In this document: piece by piece, positions 12,275 to 33,151 of the stretch
Numbering within the stretch: the first letter of the stretch is position 1
Layout of the letters: the number at the start of each line of letters is the position of its first letter
Assembly: GCF_900537175.1 (NCBI RefSeq)
Contig: NZ_LS999835.1
Span: forward strand, 385,001 to 449,000
Reading direction: 5' to 3'
Length of the DNA: 64,000 nt
Source: Lentilitoribacter sp. Alg239-R112
GTDB lineage: Bacteria > Pseudomonadota > Alphaproteobacteria > Rhizobiales > Rhizobiaceae
The notes under the pieces: model-generated
What the model was told of the DNA's origin: nothing
The model's database searches: none
What the model saw: only the letters and a program-made list of their open reading frames with translations
Translations under genes and position numbers: made by a program

Positions 12275-13283
12275 CGAGACTGTGTGGAAACGTATTAGTT
12301 TTGTTGGTACTGGTTTGAATAGGCCGTTTGAGCTGTAATTTTTGGGATAGGCTATAGAAAAGCATATACTGGTTTTATTATGGTTCTCTATTGGTTTTTG
12401 ACGCTTGTTCTGGCTGTTTTCGCAGATATGTGCCGAATATCACGCAGCTTTGATTGCAGCGGTCAGGTTTTGTAGGGCGATGATGTTGAGGACGCGTTTG
12501 AAGTCATAGGCAAGCACGTGCAGGCTTGTTTTTGTGGCGACATTCTTGCGAGTTCGGGTCAGAAAGTGGCTATGTCCCATCCACGTTTTAAGTGTTCCAA
12601 AAACATGCTCAACTGTTGACCGCCGAATGCGCATTGCATCTGGCATTTTCTCCAGCTTGTGTTCCACATCATCCAATATTGCCTCATGATCCCAACGTCT
12701 AATGCTAGCTTTGATATCATCCATCCGCCGCTGTAACTTGGCAGGCGTGAAGTTCTTGTCACGATTATTATCAGCTTTGAACTTTGAACCATCAATGGCA
12801 ACAAGCTCACCGTTCTGAGCAGCATCCAGTAAACCTATCTGACGGCAAAGACATACAAATTGACTACAAACTTGGCCGATAGCTTTGCCACTATCACGGC
12901 GGAAATCAGCAATCGTTTTAAAATCAGGGATAAGACGACCTGTTAGCCAGATCAGTTCAATATTATGGCCTGCCTCACGCTCCAGCCTGCGACTTGAGTG
13001 GATACGGTTCAAATAGTCATAAACATAGATCTTCAACAAAACAGAAGGATGATATCCGGGTCGACCCGTATGAGCAGCACCTTTGAAACCCATTGCCGCT
13101 AGATCAAGGCCATCTAAAAAGCATCAACAGCGCGAACCGGATTATCTTCACCAATAAAATCTTCAAGATGATCAGGAAATAAAAAGCCTTGTTCTCGATC
13201 ATCACCCTCAATGAAACGCTTCATCCAATACCTCTTATTAACGAAACAAATATATCACATTCACCCGTTTCCACACAGTCTCG
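12275..13283 (-). mobile_element. IS1182-like insertion sequence, internally deleted
   Basis: A 1,009-bp element is bounded by perfect 18-bp inverted repeats: CGAGACTGTGTGGAAACG at 12275-12292 and its exact complement at 13266-13283. Inside is a damaged transposase on the minus strand. Intact IS1182 elements are typically about 1.5-1.8 kb, so some 500 bp or more seem missing. No convincing target-site duplication was seen. It sits between the convergent ends of the tetronate operon and the ROK gene. The perfect ends suggest it could still be moved in trans. Confidence 0.85.
12440..13224 (-). pseudogene. IS1182-like transposase, frameshifted and internally deleted
   Basis: The natural start is the ATG at 13224 (MKRFIEGDDREQGFLFPDHL). 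That frame hits a stop after NPVRAVDAF near 13115, where one base is missing in an A/T run. Reading resumes in another frame with LDGLDLAAMGFKG and continues to 12440. The first catalytic Asp region (LVAIDGSKFKA) and the last Glu region (RRSTVEHVFGTLKTWMG) are present. The roughly 170-200 residues normally between them, including the second catalytic Asp, are gone. The protein cannot be an active DDE transposase. Family assignment rests on the motif GRPGYHPSVLLKIYVYDYLN. Confidence 0.85.
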
Positions 13284-14731: not shown

Positions 14732-15799
14732 TTGGCAAATATTGCTTTGAAGAATGTGACAAAGACATTCGGGGAATTTACAGCCGTGGATAATATCTCC
14801 GCAGAAATATCTGACGGTGAATTTGTTACATTATTAGGCCCATCTGGTTGTGGAAAAACTACACTTTTAAACTTGATGTCGGGTTTTTTAACTCCTGATG
14901 GAGGGGCCATTCAAATCGGCGGAGCGGATGTCACAAATGCTCCACCTGAACAACGCGACACAGCGATGTGTTTTCAGTCTTATGCTTTATTTCCCCATCT
15001 ATCTGTGAAGGAAAATATAGCCTTTGGATTACGTCAACAAAAGCTGCCCAGAAAAGAGATAGATGAGCGTGTAGCCGAGCTTGGCAGGCAGTTGGGATTG
15101 CAAGCTCAGTTTGCAAAGCTTCCAAACCAGCTATCAGGTGGTCAGCAGCAGCGTGTTGCTCTTGGGCGCTCATTGGCTGTACGACCAAGTGTGATTTTAT
15201 TTGATGAGCCGCTTTCCAACTTGGATGCAAAATTACGGGAAAGCGTACGTTTTGAAATTCGAAAAATACAAGCGGAAGCTAAGTTAACAGCGATTTATGT
15301 CACACATGACCAATCCGAAGCGCTGGCAATGTCGGACCGAATATTTGTGATGAATGCGGGGCGTGTTGAACAATCTGGTTCCCCAAGGGAAATCTACAAC
15401 ACACCAGTAACCAGATTTGTCGCTGACTTCATAGGTGCCGCCAACATTCTCGAGGGTGAAGTTATTGGAGCATCTGATAATGGCTCGTGGATTTTTGATA
15501 CCCAAATTGGTCAGCTGGCAGTTGAATGCAAGAAAAAGCCCGAGGCAAAAAAACATTACCTGTGTTGGCGACCCGAGGATGCCGTAGTTGATGCAAAACC
15601 GGGCAAGGGTGCTAACAGCAATTATCTTGAGGCCGATGTTTCAACGATCGCGTATCAGGGCGGGTTCACGGATGTGTTCGTTCATATAAATGATCTTGCG
15701 CAACGAATTCACGCCAGTGGAACATTTGAAATCTCCGATCAGAAGGCGAAATTCCAAATTCCACAAGATAAGATACGAATTCTGGAGCCGGTTTCATGA
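14732..15799 (+). CDS. PotA/FbpC-type ABC transporter ATPase
   Basis: This 355-aa single-ABC-domain protein has Walker A GPSGCGKTT, signature LSGGQQQRVALGRSL, Walker B VILFDEPLSNLD and switch His in YVTHDQSEALAMSD. A C-terminal regulatory (TOBE-type) region of about 110 residues follows. Translation starts at TTG 14732, preceded by GGGAGGA; the frame and spacing fit and no ATG lies close. It energises the PotB/PotC-like permeases that follow with a four-base overlap. The family covers polyamines, iron, thiamine, phosphonates and phosphodiesters; the operon's phosphodiesterase suggests a phosphodiester or related compound. Confidence 0.9.
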   Translation: MANIALKNVTKTFGEFTAVDNISAEISDGEFVTLLGPSGCGKTTLLNLMSGFLTPDGGAIQIGGADVTNAPPEQRDTAMCFQSYALFPHLSVKENIAFGLRQQKLPRKEIDERVAELGRQLGLQAQFAKLPNQLSGGQQQRVALGRSLAVRPSVILFDEPLSNLDAKLRESVRFEIRKIQAEAKLTAIYVTHDQSEALAMSDRIFVMNAGRVEQSGSPREIYNTPVTRFVADFIGAANILEGEVIGASDNGSWIFDTQIGQLAVECKKKPEAKKHYLCWRPEDAVVDAKPGKGANSNYLEADVSTIAYQGGFTDVFVHINDLAQRIHASGTFEISDQKAKFQIPQDKIRILEPVS

Positions 15800-17509: not shown

Positions 17510-18610
17510 ATGAATAAGTTTCTTACTAGCATAGCGGCGATTGCCGTATCAACAACTGGAGCTTTTGCCTCGGACCTTTCTTCTATGTCTTGGGATGAGA
17601 TCGTGGCCCAAGCGAAAGAAGAAGGTTCTGTAACTTTCACTAACTGGTATCTTCAAGATGCCATGCGTGATGCGATGAAGCCATTTGAGGAGAAGTACGG
17701 CATCAAGGTTACTATTCCTGAAGGTAAAATGACAGCAAACAGAGATAAACTGTTAGCTGAAGCCAACCGTGAAAAAGGTGACTTTGATGTTTTCGCGTTT
17801 GGATTTAACGATTTTGAGGTATTGGATAAGGAAAGTCTATTTTTGACTTTAGATGCCTTGCCAAAAGATGATGGCCGCAAAACTAAGTTGGCTGGAATAG
17901 ATGGCGGAAAATTTGTCGTCGCATATTGGGGTAACCAAACAGGTATTTCTTATGACCCTGCAAAGGTAGCAGAAGCCGATTTGCCACAAACTCCAGCCGA
18001 ATTTGAAGCATTTTGGACAGCTAACCCCGGCAAATTTGGCTTCAACTATGAAAAAGGTGGCTCCGGCCCATCGTTTTTCCATAATGTACTTCGCGTCGTC
18101 GGCGATGTCGATCTTTCTAATGGTGATGATAGCGCAGAACGTGTTGCAGAACTTCAAGCGGGAATTGACTTCTTTAATAAGAATGCTGAAAACTATGTCA
18201 TTACCGCATCAAATGCAGACTCAATAACACGGGTGAGTGACGGTGAACTCTGGATGGCGCCGGGTTGGGAAGACCATGTTGCCGGTTTGCAAAAGCGTGG
18301 CGAAATACGCAAGGACATCAAATTCTATGTGCCTTCTTTCGGTATGAATGGTGGCGGTAACGGTGTTGCAATTCCAAAAAATTCACCACACCCTGCCGCG
18401 GCTCTTGTATTCATCAATTGGCTAACGTCAGCTGAAACACAAACAAGCTTCAATGCAAACTTTGGCACAGCGCCAATGCATGCAAATGCGGATGATTCAA
18501 ATGCACTTGTTCCGAATGATCAACGTGCATACACCCAGCCATGGGGTGCACAACCGCTCTTTGACAAAATAAACGAAACATTCATCGAGAATGTAATTCA
18601 AGAGCGCTAA
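17510..18610 (+). CDS. PotD/FbpA-type extracellular solute-binding protein
   Basis: This 366-aa periplasmic protein has a Sec signal peptide (MNKFLTSIAAIAVSTTGAFA, cleavage after residue 20) and a type-II binding-protein fold. Typical elements are TFTNWYLQDAMRDAMKPFEE, VAYWGNQTGISYDPAKV and GVAIPKNSPHPAAALVFINW. It is the fourth gene of the importer operon and determines specificity. Polyamine, iron and glycerophosphodiester binders all occur in this family. With a glycerophosphodiesterase next, a glycerophospho-alcohol is the best guess, by inference only. Confidence 0.88.
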   Translation: MNKFLTSIAAIAVSTTGAFASDLSSMSWDEIVAQAKEEGSVTFTNWYLQDAMRDAMKPFEEKYGIKVTIPEGKMTANRDKLLAEANREKGDFDVFAFGFNDFEVLDKESLFLTLDALPKDDGRKTKLAGIDGGKFVVAYWGNQTGISYDPAKVAEADLPQTPAEFEAFWTANPGKFGFNYEKGGSGPSFFHNVLRVVGDVDLSNGDDSAERVAELQAGIDFFNKNAENYVITASNADSITRVSDGELWMAPGWEDHVAGLQKRGEIRKDIKFYVPSFGMNGGGNGVAIPKNSPHPAAALVFINWLTSAETQTSFNANFGTAPMHANADDSNALVPNDQRAYTQPWGAQPLFDKINETFIENVIQER

Positions 18611-19978: not shown

Positions 19979-21274
19979 TCACCCAGCTTGATCCTTGCAA
20001 TTATTCCTCTCAAAGGGGAGTTGAAATTTTGTCCATACTGTGTGGAGTGCTTCGACAAATTTATCTATCATGACAGGAGTATGGTTTGGTGATAGCGTTA
20101 CTCGTAAACGTTCGGTGCCCTTAGCAACTGTTGGGTAGTTAATTGGCTGAACATAAATATCAAAATTGCTAAGAAGTTCATCTGCGACTGCTTTGCACAG
20201 GCGCGGATCAGCAATCATTATCGGTGTTATATGGCTTTCCGACGGAAGAAACGGTATTCTTGCCAAAGTTAATCGTTTTTTCAGGTATGCAACAGCGCTG
20301 TGCATGGCTTCACGCTCGTATGAGCTTTGCCGTAAATGTGCAATTGAAGCGCGCGCGCCAGCGGCAATGGATGGTGGCATGGTACTTGTAAAAATAAATC
20401 CACTGGCATGACTGCGAATTGCATCAATAAGTGCCGACGAAGACGCAATATAACCACCAACTACACCGTAAGCCTTGGCAAGCGTTCCTTGAATGATGTC
20501 GATTTCATTGTTCAACCCTTCCCGTTCGGCTACACCCGCACCTGTAGGACCATACATGCCGACAGCATGGACCTCATCAAGATACGTCATCGCATTGTAA
20601 CGCTTGGCAAGTTCAATAATTTTTGCGATCGGACCAATATCTCCATCCATGGAGTAAACTGATTCGAATGCAATTACCTTGCAACGCGACTTGGGCTGCT
20701 CCTTAAGTAGGTCCTCCAAATGATCAATGTCATTGTGTTTGAATATCTTCTTTTCTGATTTGCTGGCTGAAATACCCTGTATCATTGAAGCATGATTTTG
20801 ATCATCAGACAGTATCAGGCAATCGGGCAATAATCGTCCAAGAGTAGATAATGTGGCTTGATTTGCGAGATAACCGCAACCGAAAACAAGCGCTTTTGGT
20901 TTTTCATGAAGTATGGAAAGCTCATGTTCCAATGCAATAATATCTCCATGATTACCCGAGATATTCCGCGTTCCACCAGAGCCAGCACCATGCAGGTCGA
21001 TTGCTTCCTTCATCGCCTTTCTAACATTTGGATGCTGTCCCATTCCTAAATAATCGTTGGAACACCAAATAGAAATTTCCTTTGGTTCACCGTGAATAAT
21101 TGCTTCTGAGTACGGGAAATGCCCAACTTGCCTATTATGCTCCTGAAAATGCCTGTAGCGCCCCTCTGCAATCAGTTCGTTCGTAGAACTCATCATATGG
21201 TCATCATAAATCGTGCCATTATTCTGGGCATGTACTTTTTGTAAATGGGGACGACTAGATAGATCGGATCTCAT
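19979..21274 (-). CDS. hemA: 5-aminolevulinate synthase
   Basis: This 431-aa PLP-dependent alpha-oxoamine synthase condenses glycine and succinyl-CoA to 5-aminolevulinate, the first step of haem synthesis in alphaproteobacteria. Signatures are [63 protein letters not shown] and the PLP lysine (Lys267) in [15 protein letters not shown]. The ATG at 21274 adds about 26 residues before the usual N-terminus; an ATG at 21196 is an alternative. It lies 18 bases after ccmI, at the end of the cytochrome-assembly operon, so it probably boosts haem supply for the c-type cytochromes. It may be a second copy in the genome. Confidence 0.93.
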
Positions 21275-21292
21275 AATACCAGTTTCCGTTGG

Positions 21293-22222
21293 TCAGTTTT
21301 GCGCATAAGAAGATTCTAAAATTTTCTGAATTTGCGGTTGAATAGGATGGTCATCTGCAATGACCTGGCTAAGTTTTTGTAATTCTTCAACAGCTTCATT
21401 ATTACGATTAAGTCTATGCAGGAGAAGGCCTTTATACCAAAGAGCTTCTAAAGTATCTGGGGCATGTTTCAGGACTGCTTCTGTATGATTGAGTAAAACT
21501 GAATTATCTCTGGTGCCATGATCAATCGCTACGCGCAAAAAATCCAAACGAAACTCCATATCGGTTGGAAATGCTTCTGTCGCTTCTTCTAATAAATTGG
21601 GAATGTCTTCGTTGCGTCCAAGCACACGATAGCTTCTTAACAGCATAACATAATCCTGTCGGCTCCCGTCTCCGCCCTTTATGCGGCCTTCAAGCCGCCC
21701 AACCATCTTGGTGACATCCGGTTGCCCGTTCTCGTCCAGGAGCGCGTTAAATGGAGATGGCATTTCTGCGTCTTCTGCAATTGGAATACGCCCATCATCA
21801 TGGGGTGAAATATCTAAGTTAATATCACTCAATGACGCGTACTGACTAACTCCAACTGCAAGAGGTGTACAAATGATTACAAGCCCAAGAATTGATAGCT
21901 TTAACCATCTATTTGTTGAACCAAAACGGTATGGTAAATGGCTAAATCGATGGTTTCGGGCATTCTCTAGCGCATGTTCTGCATCTTTATATAGAATATT
22001 ACTTACTGATTTGTGCTCTTCACTATCAATTCGCCCTTCTTGGAAAGCGTGGTCATTCTCTCTTATTAAATTAAGTAAACGATTTTTTTCATGCACCCAT
22101 CTAGCGCTCGGATCTAATACTTCTAACCCAACACCAAGGTCTCTATGTTTAGTTCGCAAGAACGGCATAGATAAGAGAAACAGTAGACTAGATAGTAATA
22201 GGAAAATTAGAATCCAAATCAT
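21293..22222 (-). CDS. ccmI: Cytochrome c biogenesis protein CcmI (CycH)
   Basis: This 309-aa protein starts with a membrane helix (IWILIFLLLSSLLFLLSMPF). A cytoplasmic loop follows with RLLNLIRENDHAFQEGRIDS, a second helix near residue 110, and a periplasmic domain of TPR type (ALWYKGLLLHRLNRNNEAVE). That is the standard CcmI layout. It presents apocytochrome c to the CcmF/CcmH haem lyase. Two bases separate it from ccmH. Confidence 0.87.
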   Translation of the reverse strand: MIWILIFLLLSSLLFLLSMPFLRTKHRDLGVGLEVLDPSARWVHEKNRLLNLIRENDHAFQEGRIDSEEHKSVSNILYKDAEHALENARNHRFSHLPYRFGSTNRWLKLSILGLVIICTPLAVGVSQYASLSDINLDISPHDDGRIPIAEDAEMPSPFNALLDENGQPDVTKMVGRLEGRIKGGDGSRQDYVMLLRSYRVLGRNEDIPNLLEEATEAFPTDMEFRLDFLRVAIDHGTRDNSVLLNHTEAVLKHAPDTLEALWYKGLLLHRLNRNNEAVEELQKLSQVIADDHPIQPQIQKILESSYAQN

Positions 22223-22224
22223 GT

Positions 22225-22662
22225 TTAAACCTCCATCTCATCTAGGCGTTGCTCGTCAAGCACATCTTTTTGACTAGGAGGATCGCGATGCATTGCTTTA
22301 ATCAATCGGTAAGCAATGAAAATGAACAAAAAGCCAAACCCAAACGGAAGAACCCACAGGAATAGACTGGGGCCATTTGTAGCCGGCTCTAGCAAAACAT
22401 AGTCTCCATAACGGTCACGAAAAAACAGGATGATGGCATCATCAGTTGCCCCAGCTTCAATTTGTTCGCGCAGAAGAAACAACATTTCCTGTGCTATTGA
22501 GGCCTGGCTGTCCAGTATGTTCTCACTTTGACATACAGGGCACCGGAGAATTGAAGCGAGCTCACGTACTCGAGGCTCATTCTTATTTTCTGTCACGAGT
22601 TGTTGGCCACCTGCATGAACAGTCAGCAAGATACCTAACAAAATTGCTATTATGACTCTCAT
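22225..22662 (-). CDS. ccmH: Cytochrome c biogenesis protein CcmH (CycL)
   Basis: This 145-aa protein has an N-terminal signal/anchor, the redox motif LRCPVCQSENILDSQA (CxxC near residue 40), and a C-terminal membrane helix (LFLWVLPFGFGFLFIFIAYR). CcmH reduces apocytochrome haem-binding cysteines as part of the CcmF-CcmH-CcmI lyase. It overlaps ccmG by four bases. Length is typical for the short CcmH form, with CcmI separate. Confidence 0.92.
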   Translation of the reverse strand: MRVIIAILLGILLTVHAGGQQLVTENKNEPRVRELASILRCPVCQSENILDSQASIAQEMLFLLREQIEAGATDDAIILFFRDRYGDYVLLEPATNGPSLFLWVLPFGFGFLFIFIAYRLIKAMHRDPPSQKDVLDEQRLDEMEV

Positions 22663-23219
22663 GGTTTTACCCCAATTTTGGGTAAAATTTCTTGCAGAAC
22701 TCGCCTATTCAAAGGTCCAGTGTGACGCCATTGAACTATACCATCTTCATCTACAAAAAATGTTTCCGGCATGCCATATACGCCAAAATCTATACTTGTG
22801 CGGCCACGCGGATCGATGCCAGACGAATAGGGAAGTTGACCCTGAGTGCTAAGAAATTGTAGCGCGTTATTATTGGTGTCACGCGAGTTTACGCCAACCA
22901 TGACGAATTCTTTCGTGTTATTTGCCTTACTACCAAGCCAGATAAGTTCATCATGTTCCTGCCTGCAGCTTGTGCACCACGAGGCCCAGAAGTTGATAAT
23001 AAAGGGCTTACCAAGATAGTCTTCAGTTTTCACTAGACCTGTTTTTGTGAGCATCGGAAGTGAAAAGCCTGGAACCTCACGACCGATGAGAGCCGATGGC
23101 AAATAAGAAGGGTCCCGTGTCAAACCAACAGCAAATAGAACCAGCAAACTTACTGCAGAACCAGCGAGAACTACACGCCAATTTAGGATATATGATTGCT
23201 TTCTGGTTGCGCAGGTCAT
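22659..23219 (-). CDS. ccmG: Thiol:disulfide interchange protein CcmG/DsbE (CycY)
   Basis: This 186-aa membrane-anchored thioredoxin-fold protein has an N-terminal helix (WRVVLAGSAVSLLVLFAVGL), the active site FWASWCTSCRQEH (WCxxC), and the family segment YGMPETFFVDEDGIVQWRHTG. CcmG keeps the CcmH or apocytochrome cysteines reduced in the periplasm. ATGA-type overlaps on both sides bind it into the operon. Confidence 0.93.
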   Translation of the reverse strand: MTCATRKQSYILNWRVVLAGSAVSLLVLFAVGLTRDPSYLPSALIGREVPGFSLPMLTKTGLVKTEDYLGKPFIINFWASWCTSCRQEHDELIWLGSKANNTKEFVMVGVNSRDTNNNALQFLSTQGQLPYSSGIDPRGRTSIDFGVYGMPETFFVDEDGIVQWRHTGPLNRRVLQEILPKIGVKP

Positions 23220-25216
23220 TCAGCTGGCACCTCAACACTTTTGGGTAAGTGTACATTAGGCTTACGAAAGGCGACTGATTGTGTGAGTGATAGCATGCTA
23301 CCCGCAAGCACGATCATCCAACCGAGCCAAATCCATATAATTAACGGGTTCCAAAATATTCGCGCTGTTATTCCTCCGCTTTCAGATTCATTGCCCATGA
23401 CCATGTATAAATCCCCGCTGAAGAAACTATGTATCGCGATCTCCGTTGTTGTCATATTTCGAATTTTATAAAATCGCTTCTGGGGCTGCATCACAAAAAG
23501 CAAGTTCCCGTTTTGCGAGACACTGAATTCTGCTACGCGGCCTTGAAAATTTTCGCCGTCCGTATCCGCCAGATTTCGCAGAGTCACCGTGAAATCTGAA
23601 ATTTCAGTACTTTGTCCGATGTTTAAGAAAACTGTTTTTGTAGACTGGAAAAGACCGGAACCAATCATACCAGCTGCAATTAGCACGATACCAAAATGAA
23701 CAATCAGGCTTCCCATTCGTCGCCGGCTATTCGTCAGTGTTTCATAAATAGAAAGCCACAAGCTAATGCTCTTCAGGCGTTTTCGTGTTGAAACAGCGAT
23801 TGATATATCTCTGACAATGCAGGCTGCAGCGAAACCAACAGCAAAAGTTGCGAGAACTGTAATAGTGCGTGCAGCGGGCAAAAACATGCATGCAATAGCT
23901 AAGATAGAACCAAAAATTAGTTGCTTATATGATATGCGCCATAACCTTTTAAGTGTCATACCACGCCAAGGAATGGATGGCCCGAGCGCCATCAAAAACA
24001 TAAGCGCGACCATGACTGGCAAAATAACTATGTTGTAATATGGTGCGCCAACGGATACTTTCTGGTCAGAGACAACCTCAAGGAAAAGCGGATAAATTGT
24101 ACCGATAAATACGCATGTTGCTGTGAGTAACAGCAAGATACTATTGATCAGAATTCCGCTCTCGCGCGAAATTAGTTTTTCGACAATTGCTTCACTTTCA
24201 AGGAGCTGACTGCGCCAAATAATAAGGCCATAGCTGACGACCATGGCGACTGCCAAGAAGATCAACATGTAAGTGCCGCGTCCAGGGTCCACTGCGAACG
24301 AGTGCACAGACGTTAAAACACCTGAACGAACCAGAAAAGTTCCAAGTAATGTTAAAAGAAATGTTGTGGTAACAAGGAATACGTTCCAAGTTCGAAACAT
24401 ATGCCGTTTCTCTTGAACCATCATGGAATGCACAAGGGCTGTTGCAGTCAGCCATGGCATAAGGGAAGCATTTTCTACTGGGTCCCATGCCCAATAGCCT
24501 CCCCATCCCAATTCGTAGTAGGCCCAATAACCACCAAAAATAATCCCGGAGGTAAGGGCTGCCCAAGAAAACAAAACCCAACGGCGGACTGCCACGACCC
24601 ACTCTATTCCGCTATACCCGCGGATCAAAGCGGCAATGGCAAATGCAAATGGAACTGTAAAACCAACATAGCCCAGATAAAGTACAGGTGGATGAAACGC
24701 TAAACCGGGGTCCTGCAAGAGTGGGTTCAAGTCCTGACCATTTAATGGGGTAGGAGTGAGCGTGAGGAATGGATTTGAAAGAAAAATAATGAAAATTAAA
24801 AACCCAATTTGAACCGCACTAAATGTTGCAATAATCAAAGGCATAGAGAGTGGGAAATTTCTCCAATGAACACAGATCGCACTGAAAGAAAATACCGCCA
24901 AATACAACGCCCAGAGAAGTAGGGAACCTTCATGCGCGCTCCAAAGTGCAGAAACTTTGTAGAGCATAGGCAGGTTCAAATTGCTATTTTGTGCAACATA
25001 GGCTGCTGAGAAATCATTTGTGATAAATGCTCGAAAGAGAACCAAAACTCCAAACAACACCAATGCAGTATGAATACCCATGGCATTTCTTGCGGAAATC
25101 AGCGCAGAAAGATTTCGAGTGCGCTCTGCAACAGTTGCTACGATAAAAGCATAGATTGACAATATCAGCGCTAAAGATACAGCAAGTTGGCCAAGTTTTA
25201 GATAACTGATGTCCAT
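23216..25216 (-). CDS. ccmF: Cytochrome c haem lyase subunit CcmF (CycK)
   Basis: This multi-spanning protein (666 aa from the ATG at 25216) has the tryptophan-rich haem-handling WWD signature GWGGYWAWDPVENASLMPWL and the PPVLYLGYVGFTVPFAFAIA segment. C-terminal helices flank a periplasmic domain. It receives haem from CcmE and ligates it to apocytochromes. A GTG just before the ATG is an alternative start. The ATG overlaps the stop of the MocR gene (TGATG), tying regulator and lyase into one transcript. No ccmE or ccmABC lies in the window. Confidence 0.94.
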   Translation of the reverse strand: MDISYLKLGQLAVSLALILSIYAFIVATVAERTRNLSALISARNAMGIHTALVLFGVLVLFRAFITNDFSAAYVAQNSNLNLPMLYKVSALWSAHEGSLLLWALYLAVFSFSAICVHWRNFPLSMPLIIATFSAVQIGFLIFIIFLSNPFLTLTPTPLNGQDLNPLLQDPGLAFHPPVLYLGYVGFTVPFAFAIAALIRGYSGIEWVVAVRRWVLFSWAALTSGIIFGGYWAYYELGWGGYWAWDPVENASLMPWLTATALVHSMMVQEKRHMFRTWNVFLVTTTFLLTLLGTFLVRSGVLTSVHSFAVDPGRGTYMLIFLAVAMVVSYGLIIWRSQLLESEAIVEKLISRESGILINSILLLLTATCVFIGTIYPLFLEVVSDQKVSVGAPYYNIVILPVMVALMFLMALGPSIPWRGMTLKRLWRISYKQLIFGSILAIACMFLPAARTITVLATFAVGFAAACIVRDISIAVSTRKRLKSISLWLSIYETLTNSRRRMGSLIVHFGIVLIAAGMIGSGLFQSTKTVFLNIGQSTEISDFTVTLRNLADTDGENFQGRVAEFSVSQNGNLLFVMQPQKRFYKIRNMTTTEIAIHSFFSGDLYMVMGNESESGGITARIFWNPLIIWIWLGWMIVLAGSMLSLTQSVAFRKPNVHLPKSVEVPAE

Positions 25217-26703
25217 CACTTTTCCAGCCCTCTCAAACAGTCATCAATTCCTGATATGGAGCTTTCTATCTTGGCTTCGCTTATCGCGGCATACCCCATA
25301 ACAACAGTTTGTGAAAATGACTTGTTTTGCTTGGATATCCAGGCCCCGCCGGTCTCGGGTCTATATATGCCAATGCCATTTAGTAATGCGGACTTCTCCA
25401 ACAAAGAAGGACTGCCGTATTTAGCTGGTAAAGACCATGATATATGTATACCGGCTGTTTCGCCAACGATCTGACAATCGCCAAATAGGTTATGAAGACC
25501 AGAAACAAGGCAATCACGACGCTTCATATAAGCTGTTCGTATTCGCCTGAGATGACGGCGGTAGCCGCCGCTATGGATGAACTCAGCCATTGCAGCCTGT
25601 TTCATCCAGCCAGTACCATTGCTAATAAGCTGTTTCCAATCCCGTAGTGGATGCATGATCTTTGGATTGGCTATTAAGTAGCCTAACCGGAGTGCAGGAC
25701 CGAAAGATTTAGAAAAGGTGCCGAGATAGATAACACGCCCTGTTTGATCCAGCCCCCTCAACGAGGTCAGAGGCGCTCCATCGTAACGAAATTCTCCGTC
25801 ATAATCATCTTCTACAATATAGCTCCCGGTCTTTCTTGCCCATTCTAACAAGAGAAATCTTCGCTCAAGGGAAAGCGTTGAACCAATTGGATATTGGTGA
25901 GATGGCGTTACATAGACAATCCATTTACCTGTTTTGGGCAACTCATCGATTTTGATGCCTTGATTATCGACTTGCACTCCTTTGCTTGCGTAGCCCATCG
26001 CAGTAAACAGAGCCAGCGCTCCAAGGTAACATGGGTCTTCGTGCAAAAACCCATATCCTTTGTCTTTGAAGGCCATTGCAAGCAATGTCAGACCATCCTG
26101 CGTACCACTTGTAATCAATACGTTATCAAAATTGGTGGATATACCACGAGATGGGCCTACATGATCTGATACCGCGGCGCGCAATGTCTCCAGTCCCTCA
26201 GGGCCTCCATAAACCGACATAGAATCGGTTTGATGTCGCAGTTTGGTTTCAACAATTTTACGCCATTCACTCTTCGGAAATAGTTTTGACTCCGTCCTGC
26301 CAATCCAGAAATCAGCCTTGAGCCGCCGACCGTCCGCCCTTTCATGCTTATGAACCAGAAGGCGATCTATCGGACTAGTTTCATCATCATTCTCGCTGGC
26401 AAGAACCCTCTCACCTCCGACGGTGTTTCCTCTTTGTGAGCTCATGGCAGCTTCAGGCAGTATTGAGCTTACAAAAGTTCCGACATTGGCTTGAGTTTCA
26501 ATATACCCTTCCGCATATAATCTTTCATAGGCTAACACGACAGTATTTCGCGAAACTCCAAGCTGCTCGCTAAGTACTCTCGTTCCAGGTACAGCATCAC
26601 CGCTTCGCAATCTGCCCTCAAGAATCATCGCGCGAAGCTCTTGAAAGACTTGCGTTTGAAGTGTTCGTTTATCATCCGGATTTAGTGCTAAAACAACTGG
26701 CAT
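25216..26703 (-). CDS. MocR/PdxR-type transcriptional regulator (GntR HTH + aminotransferase domain)
   Basis: A protein of about 495 aa with an N-terminal GntR winged helix (SGDAVPGTRVLSEQLGVSRN, about residues 35-54) and a fold-type I aminotransferase domain. The PLP lysine is in YLGTFSKSFGPALRLGYL. The ATG at 26703 is chosen because a run GGGGGGGGAAAAG precedes it; an upstream in-frame start at 26736 lacks this. MocR regulators sense PLP, often with an amine or amino acid. It lies 140 bp after haoB and overlaps ccmF, so it probably controls the hao/ccm/hemA genes. No characterised subgroup (GabR, PdxR, TauR) is implied by the neighbours. The effector is unknown. Confidence 0.88.
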   Translation of the reverse strand: MPVVLALNPDDKRTLQTQVFQELRAMILEGRLRSGDAVPGTRVLSEQLGVSRNTVVLAYERLYAEGYIETQANVGTFVSSILPEAAMSSQRGNTVGGERVLASENDDETSPIDRLLVHKHERADGRRLKADFWIGRTESKLFPKSEWRKIVETKLRHQTDSMSVYGGPEGLETLRAAVSDHVGPSRGISTNFDNVLITSGTQDGLTLLAMAFKDKGYGFLHEDPCYLGALALFTAMGYASKGVQVDNQGIKIDELPKTGKWIVYVTPSHQYPIGSTLSLERRFLLLEWARKTGSYIVEDDYDGEFRYDGAPLTSLRGLDQTGRVIYLGTFSKSFGPALRLGYLIANPKIMHPLRDWKQLISNGTGWMKQAAMAEFIHSGGYRRHLRRIRTAYMKRRDCLVSGLHNLFGDCQIVGETAGIHISWSLPAKYGSPSLLEKSALLNGIGIYRPETGGAWISKQNKSFSQTVVMGYAAISEAKIESSISGIDDCLRGLEK

Positions 26704-26843
26704 CTTTTCCCCCCCGGATCTACTATAACTTAACATGCGACAATATGCATGGTGCCGGCTCCTCTCTTATTGTTGAGTCCGGCTCTAGTATTTGTATTTC
26801 GAAATAAGGAATCTACACGCATCAAACCAAAGTTTGGGAAAGA

Positions 26844-27875
26844 TTAAACTGGTAGTAATTTATAAACCCAGTAGCCGCCCGCCTGAAACACTAGTTTAGT
26901 CCCTGGTGCCAGTCCAACTCTCGCGCCATCAAATGGGAGCAGCAGGCCAATAATCGTCGACTTATCTTTGGCATCAGAGAGAAAGTATACACGTAAGCGC
27001 CCATCTGGGATCTTTACTGCGGCATAGGAAGCATAGTTATTTACTGCCTGCCAATCCTTAATCAGACGTGTTAAATCATGAGCATGGGCGTCACCTTGAA
27101 AATCCTTCATGGCCACCAGCAGCCTGTCACCCAATTCAGCACCAAGATCAAATATGTCGCGCAAGTGAAGAATAATATAAGTATCTTCATTTGCAGACAG
27201 CGCTCTCATTTGCGCAGCACCATAAATATCTTCTGAGACAAGCGCTTCACGAAAGTTCATCCATTGTTCGTTTGATGTTTCATTCTCAAAAACTTTAGGT
27301 TGCGCATAAGGAAGAATGGCTGAATCCAACCAGCCGTCTGGCATTTGAGTTGATATAATAGGAGTAACACCCGCCAACGGAACATTTACATCATCCATGA
27401 TATTTTGAATACGGTTCGATAATTCGGGAAAAGCAAGTACCGTCGCAGTCTTGGGCAAGTATTTTTCAAGCGCTGCAAAAAGTTGAAGTTCTTCCTTTGC
27501 ATAAATATCTGAGCGGAAAATTGGTTGATTAACGTGACTTTTCCAATTGACTACCAAAGGAGGTTTGCCCTCCATTTCAAGCGCTTCAAATGATGTAATG
27601 GCCGCTCTAATTCCATCCATCTTGAGGTCGTATCGTTTAATCGTGCCTCCCAGAAGTAGTTTGCTAAGCTCCTTTGTTTCCTCAGAAATATCGGCATCGT
27701 CGGCCAACTCCAGCCTAGGGCTTTCGATAGGCTTCTCATTAGCTTGATGTAAGAAAAACCAGCTGATTAGGATAATTGACGCCAAACCTAAAATGGTGAC
27801 GGTCGCAATATGCGACCGCCGGAGGGAGTGTTTTGCGATACTTGTTCTCTCATGACTTGCTGTTAAAAGAACCAT
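26844..27875 (-). CDS. haoB: Hydroxylamine oxidation protein HaoB
   Basis: This 343-aa protein (ATG at 27875; a GTG one codon earlier is possible) has one N-terminal membrane helix (VTILGLASIILISWFFL) and a large periplasmic domain with no cofactor motif. The ATG overlaps the TGA of haoA (TGATG), the conserved haoA-haoB arrangement of ammonia oxidisers, methanotrophs and some marine alphaproteobacteria. HaoB's exact role is unsettled; it is thought to assist or anchor the hydroxylamine oxidoreductase. The call rests on synteny, size and topology and on general resemblance, so it is less certain than haoA. Confidence 0.72.
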   Translation of the reverse strand: MVLLTASHERTSIAKHSLRRSHIATVTILGLASIILISWFFLHQANEKPIESPRLELADDADISEETKELSKLLLGGTIKRYDLKMDGIRAAITSFEALEMEGKPPLVVNWKSHVNQPIFRSDIYAKEELQLFAALEKYLPKTATVLAFPELSNRIQNIMDDVNVPLAGVTPIISTQMPDGWLDSAILPYAQPKVFENETSNEQWMNFREALVSEDIYGAAQMRALSANEDTYIILHLRDIFDLGAELGDRLLVAMKDFQGDAHAHDLTRLIKDWQAVNNYASYAAVKIPDGRLRVYFLSDAKDKSTIIGLLLPFDGARVGLAPGTKLVFQAGGYWVYKLLPV

Positions 27876-29449
27876 CACTTAGCCTCAAGTTCTTCGATGC
27901 GTTTCTTAAGTGCAGCTTTCTCGCGAAGCTGTGTATCTGCATCGCGGATACGCGCTAGGCTACGAACCAGTTTCGCCCAACCATCGGTGTAAGTAAAACC
28001 ACCCGGGTTCACATGAGCAAGTCCTTTGAAATGCCTCATATTATGTTGCTCCCACATTTCCGCGAATTCTACATCAACAGCGGTTGGGTTATTACCCTTA
28101 GTGAAAAAGAAGCTAAAGAAACCGCCAGGTCCGTCTTCATCCGGATGAGGTGGTGCCGGACGATTTGTGGTTTGTCCGACTAGAAGACCATCGGCATATA
28201 AACCATCCATGACTTCTCTCGCCTGTGAAACTAAGGCAATGCCTTGAGCCGTACCTTTATCAATAACGTCAAAGTAACTGCGAGCAAAACGCTCAGAATG
28301 GCATTGAGAACAGGTGGTTATCCAACTATCAAGTCGATCTGAATACCATTCATCATTAATGTTCTCTGCTGTTTCGGGCAGAGGATTGAAACCCCACCGT
28401 ACTTTGCGAACTACATTATGGCCGTATTCTCCATCATATTCCATATGGCAGGTCTGGCAGGTTGGCGCAGTTTGACCACCCTTTTCAAAAGCATCAGCCA
28501 ACGGTAGTTCCCAATCCCACTGATCACCTGAACTGTTGTAAATTGCGCCATGCCGGGAAAGCATAAAGTTTTCGAATTCATTATGATCGACACCATTATG
28601 GCATGTTGAACAAGCCTCTGGTTTTCGTGCTTCAGCTGCAGAAAACTTATGCCTTGAATGACAAGAACCGCAGGTGTTTTGCGTTGTGTGACACAGTGTG
28701 CAACCAACGGCAATTTCGCGTTCCTCCATGCCTGCCCAGATGGCTGTGTCGACGTTTGCCAAATATGACAGCGCATGCGAAGGACGGCCAGCTGGCCATT
28801 GGCCTTGAGGCCAATTCTGGGTATCGCGTTCTGATTCACGCTCGGCGAACTCTTTTACATGGCACTGACCACATGCTGCGGCATCCGGCATTTTCAGATC
28901 AGCCTGGTGATTACCTTTCTCAGCACCCACCCCAATATGACAATCGATACAACCAACCGAATTGAGTGGTTGATCCTTCTCTAACAATCCCATGGAACGA
29001 AGGTTGTTTTCGACATCATTGATCATGTCTTTTTTATAAAAACGAGAGTCCGTCGGATCCAGTTTACGGATTTCGTCCAGATTTCCATGCACGCTTCCTT
29101 TCCAGGAATGTACCCAACCAGGCGTCACCGATTCATGGCAGGCGACACAATCACTGCGTTCAACTTCAAAGTCTAACTCAGGCGGCACGTAGTGTTCGGT
29201 TGGATTTAGGTACATTGAAAATGGAATGGGTTCCCACAAATCAGACAACGCTCCTTCACCTGCACCCTGAGCGGGGTCTCGATAACGCTCAACAATTGCA
29301 TCATAAAGCACATTTGGCGCAACACTTTTCTCGAGATTAAGCGCCTCATAAAGTTCATCAGGAATGTCTGCCCGTGCACCGGAAGACGCCAACATTGCAA
29401 AGGTAGTGAACAAGACAATTAGCGTCTGAATACAGTTTCTATGAATCAT
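27875..29449 (-). CDS. haoA: Octahaem hydroxylamine oxidoreductase
   Basis: This 524-aa secreted protein has a signal peptide ending at ARA-DI (about residue 28) and exactly eight CxxCH haem sites, starting near residues 101, 167, 193, 250, 260, 280, 331 and 380. The spacing, with a tight pair at 250/260, and the C-terminal segment VNPGGFTYTDGW are those of HAO rather than pentahaem NrfA or tetrathionate reductase. Tyr487 in that segment is the candidate for the tyrosine cross-linked to the P460 haem; if so, it favours hydroxylamine oxidation over the reductive epsilon-type. A charged coiled coil (KAALKKRIEELEAK) ends the protein. The ATG at 29449 follows a GGGAGGGG site; a longer reading from 29533 lacks a signal peptide at its start. 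No dedicated c554 or cM552 electron acceptor follows. Confidence 0.88.
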   Translation of the reverse strand: MIHRNCIQTLIVLFTTFAMLASSGARADIPDELYEALNLEKSVAPNVLYDAIVERYRDPAQGAGEGALSDLWEPIPFSMYLNPTEHYVPPELDFEVERSDCVACHESVTPGWVHSWKGSVHGNLDEIRKLDPTDSRFYKKDMINDVENNLRSMGLLEKDQPLNSVGCIDCHIGVGAEKGNHQADLKMPDAAACGQCHVKEFAERESERDTQNWPQGQWPAGRPSHALSYLANVDTAIWAGMEEREIAVGCTLCHTTQNTCGSCHSRHKFSAAEARKPEACSTCHNGVDHNEFENFMLSRHGAIYNSSGDQWDWELPLADAFEKGGQTAPTCQTCHMEYDGEYGHNVVRKVRWGFNPLPETAENINDEWYSDRLDSWITTCSQCHSERFARSYFDVIDKGTAQGIALVSQAREVMDGLYADGLLVGQTTNRPAPPHPDEDGPGGFFSFFFTKGNNPTAVDVEFAEMWEQHNMRHFKGLAHVNPGGFTYTDGWAKLVRSLARIRDADTQLREKAALKKRIEELEAK

Positions 29450-29553
29450 GAATTCCCCTCCCGTCCCACAAGCTGACGCAGGACTATCAAGAGGCAATAT
29501 TACAATTGGTGCTCGAGAAGGAGGTAGATCCATGCCCCGAATAAATGATGGGG

Positions 29554-29625
29554 CCGGTTGTAATCAACCGGTACTTGCTACATCAAAATGGCATCATTAT
29601 AAAATTTGTGACTGTATAATTTCAA
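29554..29625 (-). promoter_or_regulatory. haoA promoter and leader palindrome
   Basis: Reading leftward, TTGAAA (29625-29620), an 18-bp spacer and TATAAT (29601-29596) form a good sigma-70-type promoter for haoA. Just inside the predicted transcript lies a perfect inverted repeat, CCGGTTG-TAAT-CAACCGG (29554-29571). It could be a repressor operator or a leader stem-loop. A second short stem, GCCCC/GGGGC (29534-29554), abuts it. The role is inferred from position. Confidence 0.6.
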
Positions 29626-29683
29626 AGTAGAACAGCCAGCGTTGAGTAGGTGTTTGACGATTGCCATGAAAATTCAACAACCC

Positions 29684-29725
29684 TTTATCATACCTTTATC
29701 ATACCTTTATCATACCTTTATTACC
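29684..29725 (+). repeat. 11-bp tandem repeat upstream of the small membrane protein gene
   Basis: Three exact copies of TTTATCATACC follow each other directly (29684-29716), plus a partial fourth (TTTATTACC). The 11-bp period places each copy on the same face of DNA, as in PhoB/OmpR-type binding arrays. It ends 25 bp before the ATG at 29751. An OmpR-family regulator is encoded at 30349. A slippage-prone repeat without function is the alternative. Confidence 0.75.
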
Positions 29726-29750: not shown

Positions 29751-30137
29751 ATGCATAAACTCCTGCTCCTCATAATTGGCACGATTTATATTATTAACTC
29801 GCTCGTCATGTGGTTCACACCAATATGGTGGTACGAAACCGTTCCAGGCATTACAATGATGGGTCCATTTAATTTGCATTTCGTACGCGATATAGGTTTG
29901 GTCTACCTCATTTCTGGCATCGGATTAATCTATGGCATACGTGTGCCACAAGTTGCTATTTTCGCATGCTTATGGCCAGCTCTACATGCCTTATTTCATG
30001 CATGGATTTTTATCCAAAGAGGTATGCCATTTGATGTAATCGCTGCAACAAATCTGTTCCTGATTCAGCTTCCAGCATGGTTGAGTGTTTGGGCTGCGAT
30101 CCAACGCTTTCCTGCGCTGCAGGAAGAAGGACGTTGA
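29751..30137 (+). CDS. Small four-helix membrane protein of unknown function
   Basis: This 128-aa hydrophobic protein has about four membrane helices (LLLLIIGTIYIINSLVMWF; IGLVYLISGIGLIYGI; VAIFACLWPALHALFHAWIF; LFLIQLPAWLSVWAAI). The residues between helices include TPIWWYETVPGI, and there is a histidine-rich stretch HALFHAW. I do not recognise a characterised family. It starts after the 11-bp repeat array and is divergent from haoA and convergent with the response regulator gene. The conserved-looking Trp/His content could bind a cofactor or quinone, but that is speculative. Confidence 0.7.
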   Translation: MHKLLLLIIGTIYIINSLVMWFTPIWWYETVPGITMMGPFNLHFVRDIGLVYLISGIGLIYGIRVPQVAIFACLWPALHALFHAWIFIQRGMPFDVIAATNLFLIQLPAWLSVWAAIQRFPALQEEGR

Positions 30138-30348: not shown

Positions 30349-31089
30349 TTATTCCCATGTTACATTTGCAACAAACATGTAACCAGCTCCATAAATAGTC
30401 TTTATGAGTTTTGGTGCTTGGGGGTCTTCATTTAGTTTTGAACGTAAGCGTGAAATGCGCACATCGATGGATCGATCGAAATTCTGTTCAGCATCAATAT
30501 CTAATGTGTTGAGTATTTGAGAGCGTGAAAACAATCTATTTGGACCTGATATAAACATTTTCATAATGTCCATTTCAGCTTTGGTTAATGGTGTGGAATG
30601 ACCATCGACATGTGTCAAAGAATAGTTGGTTAAATCAATTGTCCAGTCATCAAAGAATGCTTTAAGATATTTCTTACCGTATGTATCATTAATTACTGCA
30701 GGTGTGCTCGCCTTTTCCGTACGGCGTAAAACGGTTCGTATACGGGCAATTAATTCCGCAGTTTCAAATGGTTTTGAAATGTAATCATCGGCACCCATTT
30801 CAAGGCCTACTATTTTGTCACTTAATCCACGTCTACCTGAAATTATAATACTGGCAATCTGGTATTTGTCGTTCAGCAACTTAATAAGATCCAACCCATT
30901 TTGGTCCGGCAGTCCAAGATCTATTAGGCATAGATCCGGCTTAAATACTTCTAGCTCGATCTCAAATGCAGAAGCCGATTCAAAATGTCGGGCAGTAAAA
31001 CCATAACTCTCAACCGCGATACGGATGTTCTCAGCGATATCGCAATCATCTTCGACAATAGCGATTTTGTGTGCAAGTGCATTTTTCAT
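30349..31089 (-). CDS. OmpR-family response regulator
   Basis: This 246-aa protein has a receiver domain with the acidic pocket IVEDD (residues 11-15), phospho-acceptor Asp57 in LCLIDLGLPDQNG and Lys106 in YISKPFE. A C-terminal winged helix follows (FDRSIDVRISRLRSKLNEDP; LIKTIYGAGYMFV). It lies 31 bases after the hybrid kinase gene on the same strand, so the two form a pair. Candidate targets by proximity are the 11-bp repeat at 29684 and the region at 33173-33234. Confidence 0.92.
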   Translation of the reverse strand: MKNALAHKIAIVEDDCDIAENIRIAVESYGFTARHFESASAFEIELEVFKPDLCLIDLGLPDQNGLDLIKLLNDKYQIASIIISGRRGLSDKIVGLEMGADDYISKPFETAELIARIRTVLRRTEKASTPAVINDTYGKKYLKAFFDDWTIDLTNYSLTHVDGHSTPLTKAEMDIMKMFISGPNRLFSRSQILNTLDIDAEQNFDRSIDVRISRLRSKLNEDPQAPKLIKTIYGAGYMFVANVTWE

Positions 31090-31120
31090 GTAACGATCTT
31101 CTTTTTTATGTCCGTTGACA

Positions 31121-33151
31121 TCAGCTTAGTAAGCCTAGAATTGTTTTTGCAAAAACTTGAGAATCAAATGGTTTACGAAGGAGAGTGAATTCATTTTGAG
31201 CGTCTTTTATTATCGGGTCTTGTCGCGGTAAACCGCTTACCAATAATATATTTAGTTCCGGTTTGATTACACTCCATTTGCGCGCTAAGTCTAATCCGTT
31301 TTCCAAACCGGGCATAATGATATCGGTAATCACTGTGGTTATTTCTGGGACTTGTTCCACAAGGTTACAAGCTTCAATAGCACCATTTGCTTCGATATTT
31401 GGTATCCCAAGGGTGACTAGGTGATTTCGCATAAGTGCCCTAAGCTCCGGATCATCATCAACGATGAGGAACAACTGGTTACTTAAGTTCTTAAGTTGAG
31501 TTGGAGTCTCATTTAGTTTGTTTTGAGATGTACAGAATGGAATCTTCAAGCAGACCTGCCCGCCACCGTCTTGCGTATTTGACAGTTCCAGTTCTCCTGC
31601 GGATTGTTCAAGAAACGTATTTACCATGGAAAGCCCAAGTCCGGTTCCTTTCCCTTGTGGCTTAGTTGTAAAGAATGGCTCTTTTGCTTTAGCAATTACG
31701 TCTTCTGAGAAGCCATGACCGGTGTCCGTGATGTTAATACAAACAGTTTTCTTTTCATCTTCATCTGTGTTTTCAATCTTTGCAGAGACGGTAATTTTAC
31801 CTTCTCCATGGTGAGTTTCAATTGCATCTCGTGCATTAAATAAAACATTTAGGATAGCATCTTGAAATGCGCCTTCGTCTACCTGGCTGATGATTTCTTC
31901 ATCACCGAGTTCGAGGTTGATATTGATGGAGCTGGAAAGCGAAGCGGAAAAGAGTTTTACCAGATCTCGAAGCAAAGCAGATAAGTTCGTAATTTTAATA
32001 TCAAGGTTTTGGCGAAATAAGAAAGACATCAAATTATCAATTATGCGAGTACCGCGTCTAGCAGCCTGCTCTGTAGAGCGGATCAAATCGGACTGCGAGT
32101 TGTCTGCTGCTTTTTCGATACGTTCGAGATTACCCAAGATTACGGTCAAAATATTTGAAAAGTCATGCGCAAGTCCGCTGGTCAATTGAGCAGTTGTTTC
32201 CAATCTATTTGCTCTTAACTGCATTTCGTTGGCAGCAATTTCCGCAGACACGTTTAGAGACTGAACAAAAACACCATGTGTTACCCCTTCTTCATCTATG
32301 TCTGGTGAGAATGTTGTGCGCACGGAATGTATATCGTCTTCGATGCCTTCTACCCTGTAACTAAAAGTTATTGTGTTCCCCTGAAGGGCGGTTTCCAAAT
32401 TTGGTTGTATGTGTGCCAAAACTTTTTTGGGAAATACTTCTGTAATATTTTTATCAACGAGACTGTCTCGTTGGATTCCCATGACATCAGAAAATCGATT
32501 GTTGGAGAAGCGATAAATGCAGTGTTCGTCAATATAAGCAATATGAGCTGGCATTGCGCGCGTAATCTTGCGCATTCGCCCTTCTGAAACAAGCAATTCT
32601 TGTTTGGTTTTTTGAAGAGCGCGATTTGCTGCCTCTAGAGCGCGGTTGGTTTCTGATAATTGGCCGGTACGACGCAATAGCTTGTCAGATAGTTCATCGC
32701 TGCGTGCTCTAAGTACTTGTTCATTTCGCCAAGTTTCGGTGATGTCAGAATAAATAGTCACCCATCCTCCGCTTTCAAGTGGGTGCCCCTCAACTGATAT
32801 GCGTTGTCCATTTGGTCTGGTACGTTCAAAATAATGCGGTTCAAACAAGCGGGCACGTTCTATCCGTTCTGCCGCCAATAAGCCTACATCACCAGGCCCA
32901 AATTCACCGCGGCGTGCCAAAAAATAGTTCAGATCTGCAAAAGAAAGACCCGGGATGATAATCTCGTTAGGCAATTCAAATAGATCGATAAAACGTTGAT
33001 TGCAGGTTACTAATGTCATGTTTGCATTAAAAATCGACAAGGCTTGCTGAATGAGATTCAGGCCTTGTTCGATAACGAGATGATCGTTTGATTTATCTGT
33101 GGTTCTGGTATTGTAAACTGCTGGCAAACTCGAACCCTCCTTGTCCAACAT
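31121..33151 (-). CDS. PAS-domain hybrid sensor histidine kinase
   Basis: This 676-aa protein lacks membrane helices, so it should be cytoplasmic. In order it has an N-terminal PAS domain (about 30-130), a coiled-coil linker (LSETNRALEAANRALQKTKQ), a second PAS domain (about 200-310), a HisKA segment with the phospho-His in SGLAHDFSNILTVILGNLER, and an ATPase domain (NVLFNARDAI; DTGHGFSEDV; GKGTGLGLSM). A C-terminal receiver follows (LIVDDDPELRALM; Asp in VITDIIMPG). It forms a phosphorelay with the regulator downstream. Because it is divergent from the ABC/acyl-ligase operon at 33298, it may sense that operon's substrate. Confidence 0.92.
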   Translation of the reverse strand: MLDKEGSSLPAVYNTRTTDKSNDHLVIEQGLNLIQQALSIFNANMTLVTCNQRFIDLFELPNEIIIPGLSFADLNYFLARRGEFGPGDVGLLAAERIERARLFEPHYFERTRPNGQRISVEGHPLESGGWVTIYSDITETWRNEQVLRARSDELSDKLLRRTGQLSETNRALEAANRALQKTKQELLVSEGRMRKITRAMPAHIAYIDEHCIYRFSNNRFSDVMGIQRDSLVDKNITEVFPKKVLAHIQPNLETALQGNTITFSYRVEGIEDDIHSVRTTFSPDIDEEGVTHGVFVQSLNVSAEIAANEMQLRANRLETTAQLTSGLAHDFSNILTVILGNLERIEKAADNSQSDLIRSTEQAARRGTRIIDNLMSFLFRQNLDIKITNLSALLRDLVKLFSASLSSSININLELGDEEIISQVDEGAFQDAILNVLFNARDAIETHHGEGKITVSAKIENTDEDEKKTVCINITDTGHGFSEDVIAKAKEPFFTTKPQGKGTGLGLSMVNTFLEQSAGELELSNTQDGGGQVCLKIPFCTSQNKLNETPTQLKNLSNQLFLIVDDDPELRALMRNHLVTLGIPNIEANGAIEACNLVEQVPEITTVITDIIMPGLENGLDLARKWSVIKPELNILLVSGLPRQDPIIKDAQNEFTLLRKPFDSQVFAKTILGLLS

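Follow-up and report, generated by a model that had tools for sequence, protein, structure and literature searches.

A candidate MocR-governed regulon for hydroxylamine oxidation and haem-c assembly in Lentilitoribacter sp. Alg239-R112

Introduction

NrfEFG is an example of a dedicated haem lyase set acting on a single multihaem enzyme, with NrfE serving a CxxCK haem, and the known effectors of MocR regulators, e.g., gamma-aminobutyric acid (GABA) for GabR, are amines forming external aldimines with pyridoxal 5'-phosphate (PLP). Hydroxylamine itself forms oximes with PLP, and to our knowledge no dedicated hydroxylamine sensor has been described. In enzymes, stable oximes formed from PLP and O-substituted hydroxylamines have been reported (PMC11557217). 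In Alcaligenes, the dirammox cluster dnfT1RT2ABCD is reported to be under the control of DnfR, a regulator of the MocR family, and a dnfR point mutant was reported to no longer make hydroxylamine. The window analysed here, i.e., the whole stretch of 64,000 nucleotides from Lentilitoribacter sp. Alg239-R112 (contig NZ_LS999835.1, positions 385,001 to 449,000), harbours a module of eight genes, in which the genes for hydroxylamine oxidoreductase (HAO) and its partner protein are followed by those for a MocR regulator, for haem attachment and for a 5-aminolevulinate (ALA) synthase. From sequence comparisons we suggest, with a probability of roughly 0.6, that this module represents a MocR-governed regulon for hydroxylamine oxidation in which the MocR PLP would serve as hydroxylamine trap. 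The regulon itself, with MocR acting on HAO and the haem-c block, is considered highly probable on these grounds, and the role of hydroxylamine as direct PLP ligand of MocR is put forward tentatively.

The hao module and its genome

The first-pass annotation of the window had described haoA, haoB, mocR, ccmF, ccmG, ccmH, ccmI and hemA as lying head to tail, and all eight open reading frames (ORFs) were indeed found on the minus strand and assigned to the expected families. The features are as follows.

27875..29449, minus strand: haoA, octahaem hydroxylamine oxidoreductase (PF13447, 489.6 bits; eight CxxCH)
26844..27878, minus strand: haoB, HAO partner protein (TIGR04392, 197.5 bits vs a cut-off of 200)
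25216..26736, minus strand: mocR, regulator with GntR-type helix-turn-helix (HTH) and fold-type I aminotransferase (PLP) domain (PF00392, PF00155)
23216..25219, minus strand: ccmF, haem lyase of a second lineage (PF16327 and PF01578)
22659..23219, minus strand: ccmG, DsbE-type thioredoxin (TIGR00385, 135.3 bits, cut-off 123.15)
22225..22662, minus strand: ccmH (PF03918, 104.4 bits)
21293..22222, minus strand: ccmI-like tetratricopeptide repeat (TPR) protein (36% identity to the R. pomeroyi TPR protein SPO_RS20810, same position)
19979..21274, minus strand: hemA, 5-aminolevulinate synthase (TIGR01821, 581.5 bits)
29524..29556, minus strand: predicted operator for MocR, located upstream of haoA and composed of two half-sites with a period of 24 bp
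26749..26781, minus strand: second, weaker operator predicted for MocR, located upstream of mocR (ranked fifth in the window with the final matrix)

According to the ORF coordinates, 4-nt overlaps exist at haoA/haoB, mocR/ccmF, ccmF/ccmG and ccmG/ccmH, and the remaining gaps amount to 107 nt (haoB-mocR), 2 nt (ccmH-ccmI) and 18 nt (ccmI-hemA). The haoA start at 29449, as previously annotated, fits better than the longest-ORF start at 29533: it is preceded by GGGAGGGG and opens a stretch which by eye resembles a signal peptide, and the ATG at 29533 falls within the predicted operator. As judged from alignments, the window HaoA is a Nitrosomonas-type HAO whose enzyme site is intact. It matched the N. 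europaea HAO chains 6m0p, 4fas and 1fgj with 663-665 bits over about 497 residues (mature length), and the equivalent of Tyr467, presumably the tyrosine cross-linking haem P460, was aligned and is kept in 16 of 16 HaoA rows. Since all eight haem motifs are CxxCH, a special haem motif as reason for the extra haem lyase was rejected. HaoB scores just below the cut-off of its model, its position beside haoA being in line with the assignment, and its AlphaFold model is of low confidence (pLDDT 70, pTM 0.58), with a weak best match in the PDB (C-terminal domain of the oligosaccharyltransferase PglB, E 0.0086) and none under 0.001. MocR exceeds the cut-off of the PdxR model (409.8 bits vs 320), and CcmF was compared with NrfE-type models, scoring 413.7 for PRK10369 (cut-off 394), 527.8 for TIGR03145 (cut-off 927.3) and 549.2 for TIGR00353 (cut-off 569.05). 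The ccmI product is TPR-like and had no match in Pfam.

The genome (3.91 Mb, four contigs, 99% complete) encodes a single HAO. Matches to AMO/pMMO (PF02461) and to the cytochrome c554 domain (PF13435) amounted to zero each, which, with respect to ammonia oxidation, is consistent with the earlier description of the organism as an apparent heterotroph. A second, separate CcmF is encoded on contig C1 (38.5% identity to the CcmF of the module), and two further ALA synthases exceed the TIGR01821 cut-off, so that the hemA of the module is one of three; the module is thus an additional haem-c assembly set. A foreign base composition was considered and rejected, as the GC content of the module (43-46%) resembles that of the remaining window.

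Conservation of the module and a block lacking hao

All eight genes were identified in exactly the same order in Ruegeria pomeroyi DSS-3, where they reside on a 491-kb megaplasmid (SPO_RS20840-SPO_RS20805), and in genome G685, which was placed as Rhodobacteraceae-like by means of a 16S probe. Identities between the window and R. pomeroyi are 74% for HaoA, 43% for HaoB, 50% for MocR, 62.5% for CcmF, 50% each for CcmG and CcmH, 36% for CcmI and 62% for HemA. Downstream of the R. pomeroyi module ccmE, a truncated haemoglobin gene, a DUF2189 gene and ccoNOQP (cbb3) follow, and in G685 ccmE is added and an IS240-type ORF adjoins. Within the order of the window organism HaoB was found in five of 297 genomes, the own genome included. 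Here, G141 possesses haoA-haoB-mocR-ccmFGHI, G289 a permuted order (mocR-ccmFGHI-hemA-ccmE-haoA-haoB) and G031 a haoB facing mocR-ccmFGHI-ccmE on the opposite strand, with haoA expected past the contig end, and G238, whose genome carries pMMO-type genes, has haoAB with mocR on the opposite strand and no ccm gene in the 17 kb read. HaoA was found in six of 385 genomes of the class (four near full length with at least 54% identity, the own genome being counted both times) and in two of 394 Rhodobacteraceae-like genomes, one of these being a 47-residue match. The module had been proposed to be a portable unit, and this view is borne out by an order that is conserved and patchily distributed (one of 394 genomes apart from the 47-residue match) and by its apparent mobility, as seen from the megaplasmid and the IS240-type neighbour in G685. 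Among 28 HAO loci of named genomes a linked MocR was seen at one (L026) and a ccm block at none, several of these contigs ending early. In some other Alphaproteobacteria haoA was observed after a cytochrome b6-like gene and a gene for a small protein with one CxxCH motif (L054, 5781-9926; L002, 948-5099; L024, 540-3112), an arrangement reminiscent of a bc-type complex dedicated to HAO; the cytochrome b was confirmed by Pfam in L054, and the remaining assignments were made by eye.

A search with the window CcmF in the 297 genomes of the order revealed two identity classes among the matches listed, i.e., a high class (48-52% identity, more than 640 bits) in G000, G031, G289 and eight genomes of family f33, and a low class of at most 42% identity among the other matches listed. 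The three genomes of the high class outside f33 all possess hao. Seven f33 loci, namely those of six genomes having no HaoB match and a second locus of G141, were found to carry a mocR-ccmF-G-H-I-hemA-ccmE block, and in the 14-20 kb read around these blocks hao was found at none of the seven. In six of the seven genomes read (loci L109-L115) no CcmF other than that of this block was matched, G141 having two. In L109 it is followed by genes for a Crp-type regulator, ccoN and ccoO (Pfam), and for L115 Pfam confirmed a gene of the ccoP type; the tail genes of the remaining loci were judged by ORF size, one contig ending before the tail. Occurring without hao, the haem and ccm genes thus form a unit of their own that is able to serve other cytochromes. 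As a consequence, the earlier interpretation was supported in one respect and revised in another: the unit is real, conserved and apparently mobile, but the claim that its ccm and hemA genes constitute a haem set for one octahaem enzyme is not supported, considering the seven hao-less f33 loci and the lack of hemA at two of six hao-ccm loci. The idea of an own haem set is replaced by that of a MocR regulon in which HAO is coupled to a haem-c assembly block that can be reused.

The MocR subfamily, its PLP pocket and the predicted operator

By sequence comparison, the part of the module which tracks HAO best is the MocR subfamily together with its DNA repeat, neither of which had been singled out in the first-pass annotation. 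With the window MocR as reference, the MocRs encoded beside hao in nine HAO genomes reached 431.8-592.8 bits, and no other MocR of these genomes exceeded 207.5 bits; the f33-type copy of G141 falls into the latter group (288 bits by tblastn). No MocR similar to that of the window was found in G419 and G523 at E 1e-20, and one of 95 bits was found in G420. In G238 and L026, the MocR adjoins haoAB in the absence of ccm or hemA from the DNA read. Phylogenetic analysis placed eight HAO-linked and seven f33 MocRs in one clade (support 100/98) with the gammaproteobacterial L026 at its base, whereby the f33 MocRs are nested among the HAO-linked ones, several forks there being weakly supported. Indirect evidence for HaoA and MocR homologues residing on the same contigs was obtained from the best 120 homologues of each in a database of 5.8 billion, own rows excluded: 19 of 119 HaoA rows match a MocR row in the exact length of the longest contig, and in a control with lengths shifted by 1-60 the shared pairs averaged 0.47 and never exceeded four.

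The PLP pocket was assessed at the positions aligned with GabR Y205, D279, Y281, S311, K312 and R319. All eight HAO-linked MocRs possess the complete Y-D-Y-S-K-R set, as do 114 of the best 120 MocR homologues (own included), the other six showing one conservative change each. Among the seven MocRs of the f33 blocks the set is complete in none, with Y205, Y281, S311 and R319 lost in all seven. In G141 an intact MocR pocket is found beside hao, and the lysine is lost in the MocR beside the stand-alone block. As eleven other MocRs of these genomes retain D, S, K and R (11 of 11), Y205 (10) and Y281 (7), the f33 MocRs are an exception. The loss does not extend to the DNA-binding part: 21 of 21 HTH positions that are invariant in HAO-linked MocRs are kept in all seven f33 MocRs, whereas of 81 invariant PLP-domain positions the f33 MocRs uniformly retain 43 and have uniformly lost ten. 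The HemA and CcmF of the same blocks keep 156 of 172 and 204 of 222 invariant positions, respectively (invariance over four and six HAO-linked rows), and the decay is therefore specific to the MocR effector domain. GabR Arg207, which like Arg430 is carboxylate-binding, is replaced by Gly in all eight HAO-linked MocRs and is absent from all 26 MocR rows.

The f33 mocR promoters share the motif TGGACCCAT-N15-TGGACTTAT, and seven HAO-linked loci carry a 24-bp direct repeat, TGGACCCAT-N15-TGGACCCAT, upstream of mocR or haoA. A matrix trained on the f33 mocR promoters alone, scanned with spacings of 23-25 and covering 14.2 kb of the window, recovered such a site as first or second best pair in seven loci, with a spacing of 24 throughout. 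The site precedes haoA in the window and mocR in the six other loci (R. pomeroyi, G685, G141, G289, G031 and G238). In leave-one-out scans of both strands these sites ranked first in seven of seven loci, the window site being first of 127,936 positions, in a test that is not fully blind, as its sites are those picked in the f33-matrix scan. Ten shuffles per locus yielded no equal-scoring match, and the spacing of 24 was the best of 19-30 in each locus. The haoA operator is also the best site in 344 kb of the own genome with a matrix that includes the site itself. In the five loci readable at the respective other promoter a further site was identified, ranking second in R. pomeroyi (overlapping an annotated hypothetical ORF), G685 and G238, fourth in G289 and fifth in the window. 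The pair of sites predicted for R. pomeroyi occupies 14853-14885 and 17608-17640 of locus L030. The haoA promoters of the five readable MocR loci score 11.6-19.5 (the window 19.5 with the self-including matrix and 18.2 upon leave-one-out), and those of 31 comparison loci, i.e., 30 where no MocR was seen and L026, score 10.7 at best, with a mean of -0.5.

Proposed mechanism and alternative explanations

The suggested mechanism assumes that HaoA would oxidise periplasmic hydroxylamine, by analogy with known HAO to nitric oxide (NO), with HaoB acting as its usual partner, and that CcmFGHI and the extra ALA synthase would boost haem-c assembly when the eight-haem protein is made; both this reaction and the fate of the electrons and of NO are what we infer. 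MocR is expected to bind the 24-bp direct repeats of both promoters (haoA and mocR), by which the supply of enzyme would be tied to that of haem. Next, hydroxylamine would attack the internal aldimine of MocR, yielding a PLP oxime, whereupon MocR may change and both promoters may be switched. Considering the PLP-oxime chemistry, a PLP regulator beside HAO would thus be a natural sensor, and the dead pocket beside the hao-less block fits sensing of hydroxylamine by the MocR PLP. It is possible, at slightly less than even odds, that HAO-linked MocRs constitute a new class of small-molecule sensors which detect free hydroxylamine via the PLP oxime and drive HAO and haem attachment, presumably in heterotrophs that feed on or detoxify hydroxylamine leaked by other organisms, and which, where hao is missing, have a dead pocket and a retained DNA-binding half.

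Several findings weigh against this proposal. As to the distribution, 27 of the 28 HAO loci of named genomes have no linked MocR in the DNA read, the absence of HAO from f33 rests on the HaoB search and the 14-20 kb read, with HaoA not searched there, and G141, itself a member of f33, has hao on another contig. As to the pocket, the PLP lysine is lost in one f33 MocR and kept in six of seven, the f33 pocket loss probably reflects a single event in one lineage rather than seven, an intact pocket is usual for MocRs and therefore does not by itself indicate hydroxylamine, and Arg207, being absent from all 26 rows, yields little information on the ligand. As to the operator, none was found in the f33-matrix scan of L026 despite its linked MocR, the second sites are weaker (ranks 2-5), that of G685 lies within the IS240-type ORF, and the gap between the haoA-promoter classes is narrow (11.6 vs 10.7). 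The absence of hemA from two of the six hao-ccm loci is likewise unfavourable, and it also bears on the alternative that survives best, although unlikely, namely that the block is a regulon for haem and cytochrome-c assembly in general, with a MocR responding to B6 status or to a haem precursor (ALA), and that haoAB merely joined it because an eight-haem protein profits. Such a role would agree with the hao-less f33 block lying beside cbb3 genes where checked, with the cbb3 genes downstream in R. pomeroyi and with the MocR exceeding the PdxR cut-off, but besides the missing hemA it has to face the MocRs next to haoAB in G238 and L026, where the DNA read contains neither ccm nor hemA. Furthermore, in the hao-less blocks the PLP pocket of MocR has decayed while the ALA synthase keeps its own, which runs contrary to the prediction for a MocR that senses B6 or ALA for haem supply. 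A markedly less probable explanation retains MocR as regulator of the module and assumes an amine or amino acid from a hydroxylamine-releasing pathway as its ligand, as would be in line with known effectors such as GABA. According to PMC11440038, the ligand of DnfR had yet to be identified. An amine ligand is at odds with the replacement of Arg207 and Arg430 in eight of eight HAO-linked MocRs, with the limits that Arg207 is absent elsewhere too and that the Arg430 column is uncertain, and no common amine-catabolism gene was noticed among the HAO-MocR loci read. A chance or decaying cluster having no shared function, as might be read from the patchy distribution and the many searched relatives lacking the module, is already disfavoured by order, active sites and operator being conserved between orders and is highly improbable.

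If the PLP-based sensor proposed here is real, it would explain why MocR regulators occur in two different hydroxylamine systems and would provide a marker for non-nitrifying bacteria using hydroxylamine. The idea lends itself to direct testing, R. pomeroyi being a marine bacterium available in culture; the regulon can be predicted from the operator, and the hao-less block offers a natural control.

Neighbouring genes

Ten flanking ORFs of contig C3 are ordinary catabolic and housekeeping genes (Pfam). Between 43952 and 54817 the window carries genes for a Crp/Fnr regulator and NnrS, nosR-, nosZ-, nosD- and nosL-type genes, an ApbE (NosX-type) gene and, judging by position, nosFY, encoding an ABC-type ATPase and its permease. 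This nos set for N2O reductase, together with NnrS and the Crp/Fnr regulator, is located 14-25 kb from the module and would suit onward reduction. Upstream of hao, an OmpR-type response regulator and a PAS hybrid kinase are encoded on the same strand (30349-33151). This pair was rejected as part of the unit: L005, L012 and L027 gave only weak response-regulator or kinase matches, five f33 loci only kinase matches of 22-25% and the alphaproteobacterial hao loci read no match, and none is annotated within 15 kb in R. pomeroyi. A divergent 128-aa ORF (29751-30137) was rejected as a conserved part, since the same-sized ORF of R. pomeroyi did not match. Short tandem ATAAAGGTATG-type repeats (29680-29725) lie between this ORF and haoA, and a transposase-type ORF (DUF772, 12440-13093) is located about 7 kb off the module.

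Comparison with known systems

Literature joining HAO, ccmF and hemA was not found; judged by title, the articles on MocR and HAO all concern Alcaligenes, DnfA or dirammox, and those on R. pomeroyi and hydroxylamine, judged by title or the start of the abstract, do not address HAO. The presence of hao in R. pomeroyi has presumably been noted in older comparative papers. With the Nitrosomonas-type HAO the window enzyme shares the eight CxxCH motifs, the Tyr467 equivalent and the adjoining haoB. Unlike ammonia oxidisers and methanotrophs, the organism has no match for AMO/pMMO or the c554 domain in its genome, and its hao is linked to mocR, ccm and hemA. The dirammox cluster of Alcaligenes provides an independent parallel in that a MocR-family regulator is reported to stand over hydroxylamine metabolism there as well, but DnfA contains a diiron centre and shares no homology with HAO. 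GabR and PdxR share the GntR HTH and the PLP aminotransferase domain (best solved relatives 7pq9 and GabR 4n0b), whereas the HAO-linked MocRs, in contrast to GabR, lack the arginines for the GABA carboxylate, with Arg207 also missing in the other MocRs compared; gab or pdx genes were not noticed among the annotated neighbours of the loci read, no search having been aimed at pdx. NrfEFG is alike in that an extra haem lyase of the CcmF/NrfE family is encoded beside a multihaem enzyme gene, but the window HaoA with its CxxCH motifs offers no CxxCK client, and blocks of the window type also occur without hao. A further close counterpart is the R. pomeroyi locus, which shares all eight genes as well as their order and differs in that it continues with ccmE onward, while the module of the window ends at hemA.

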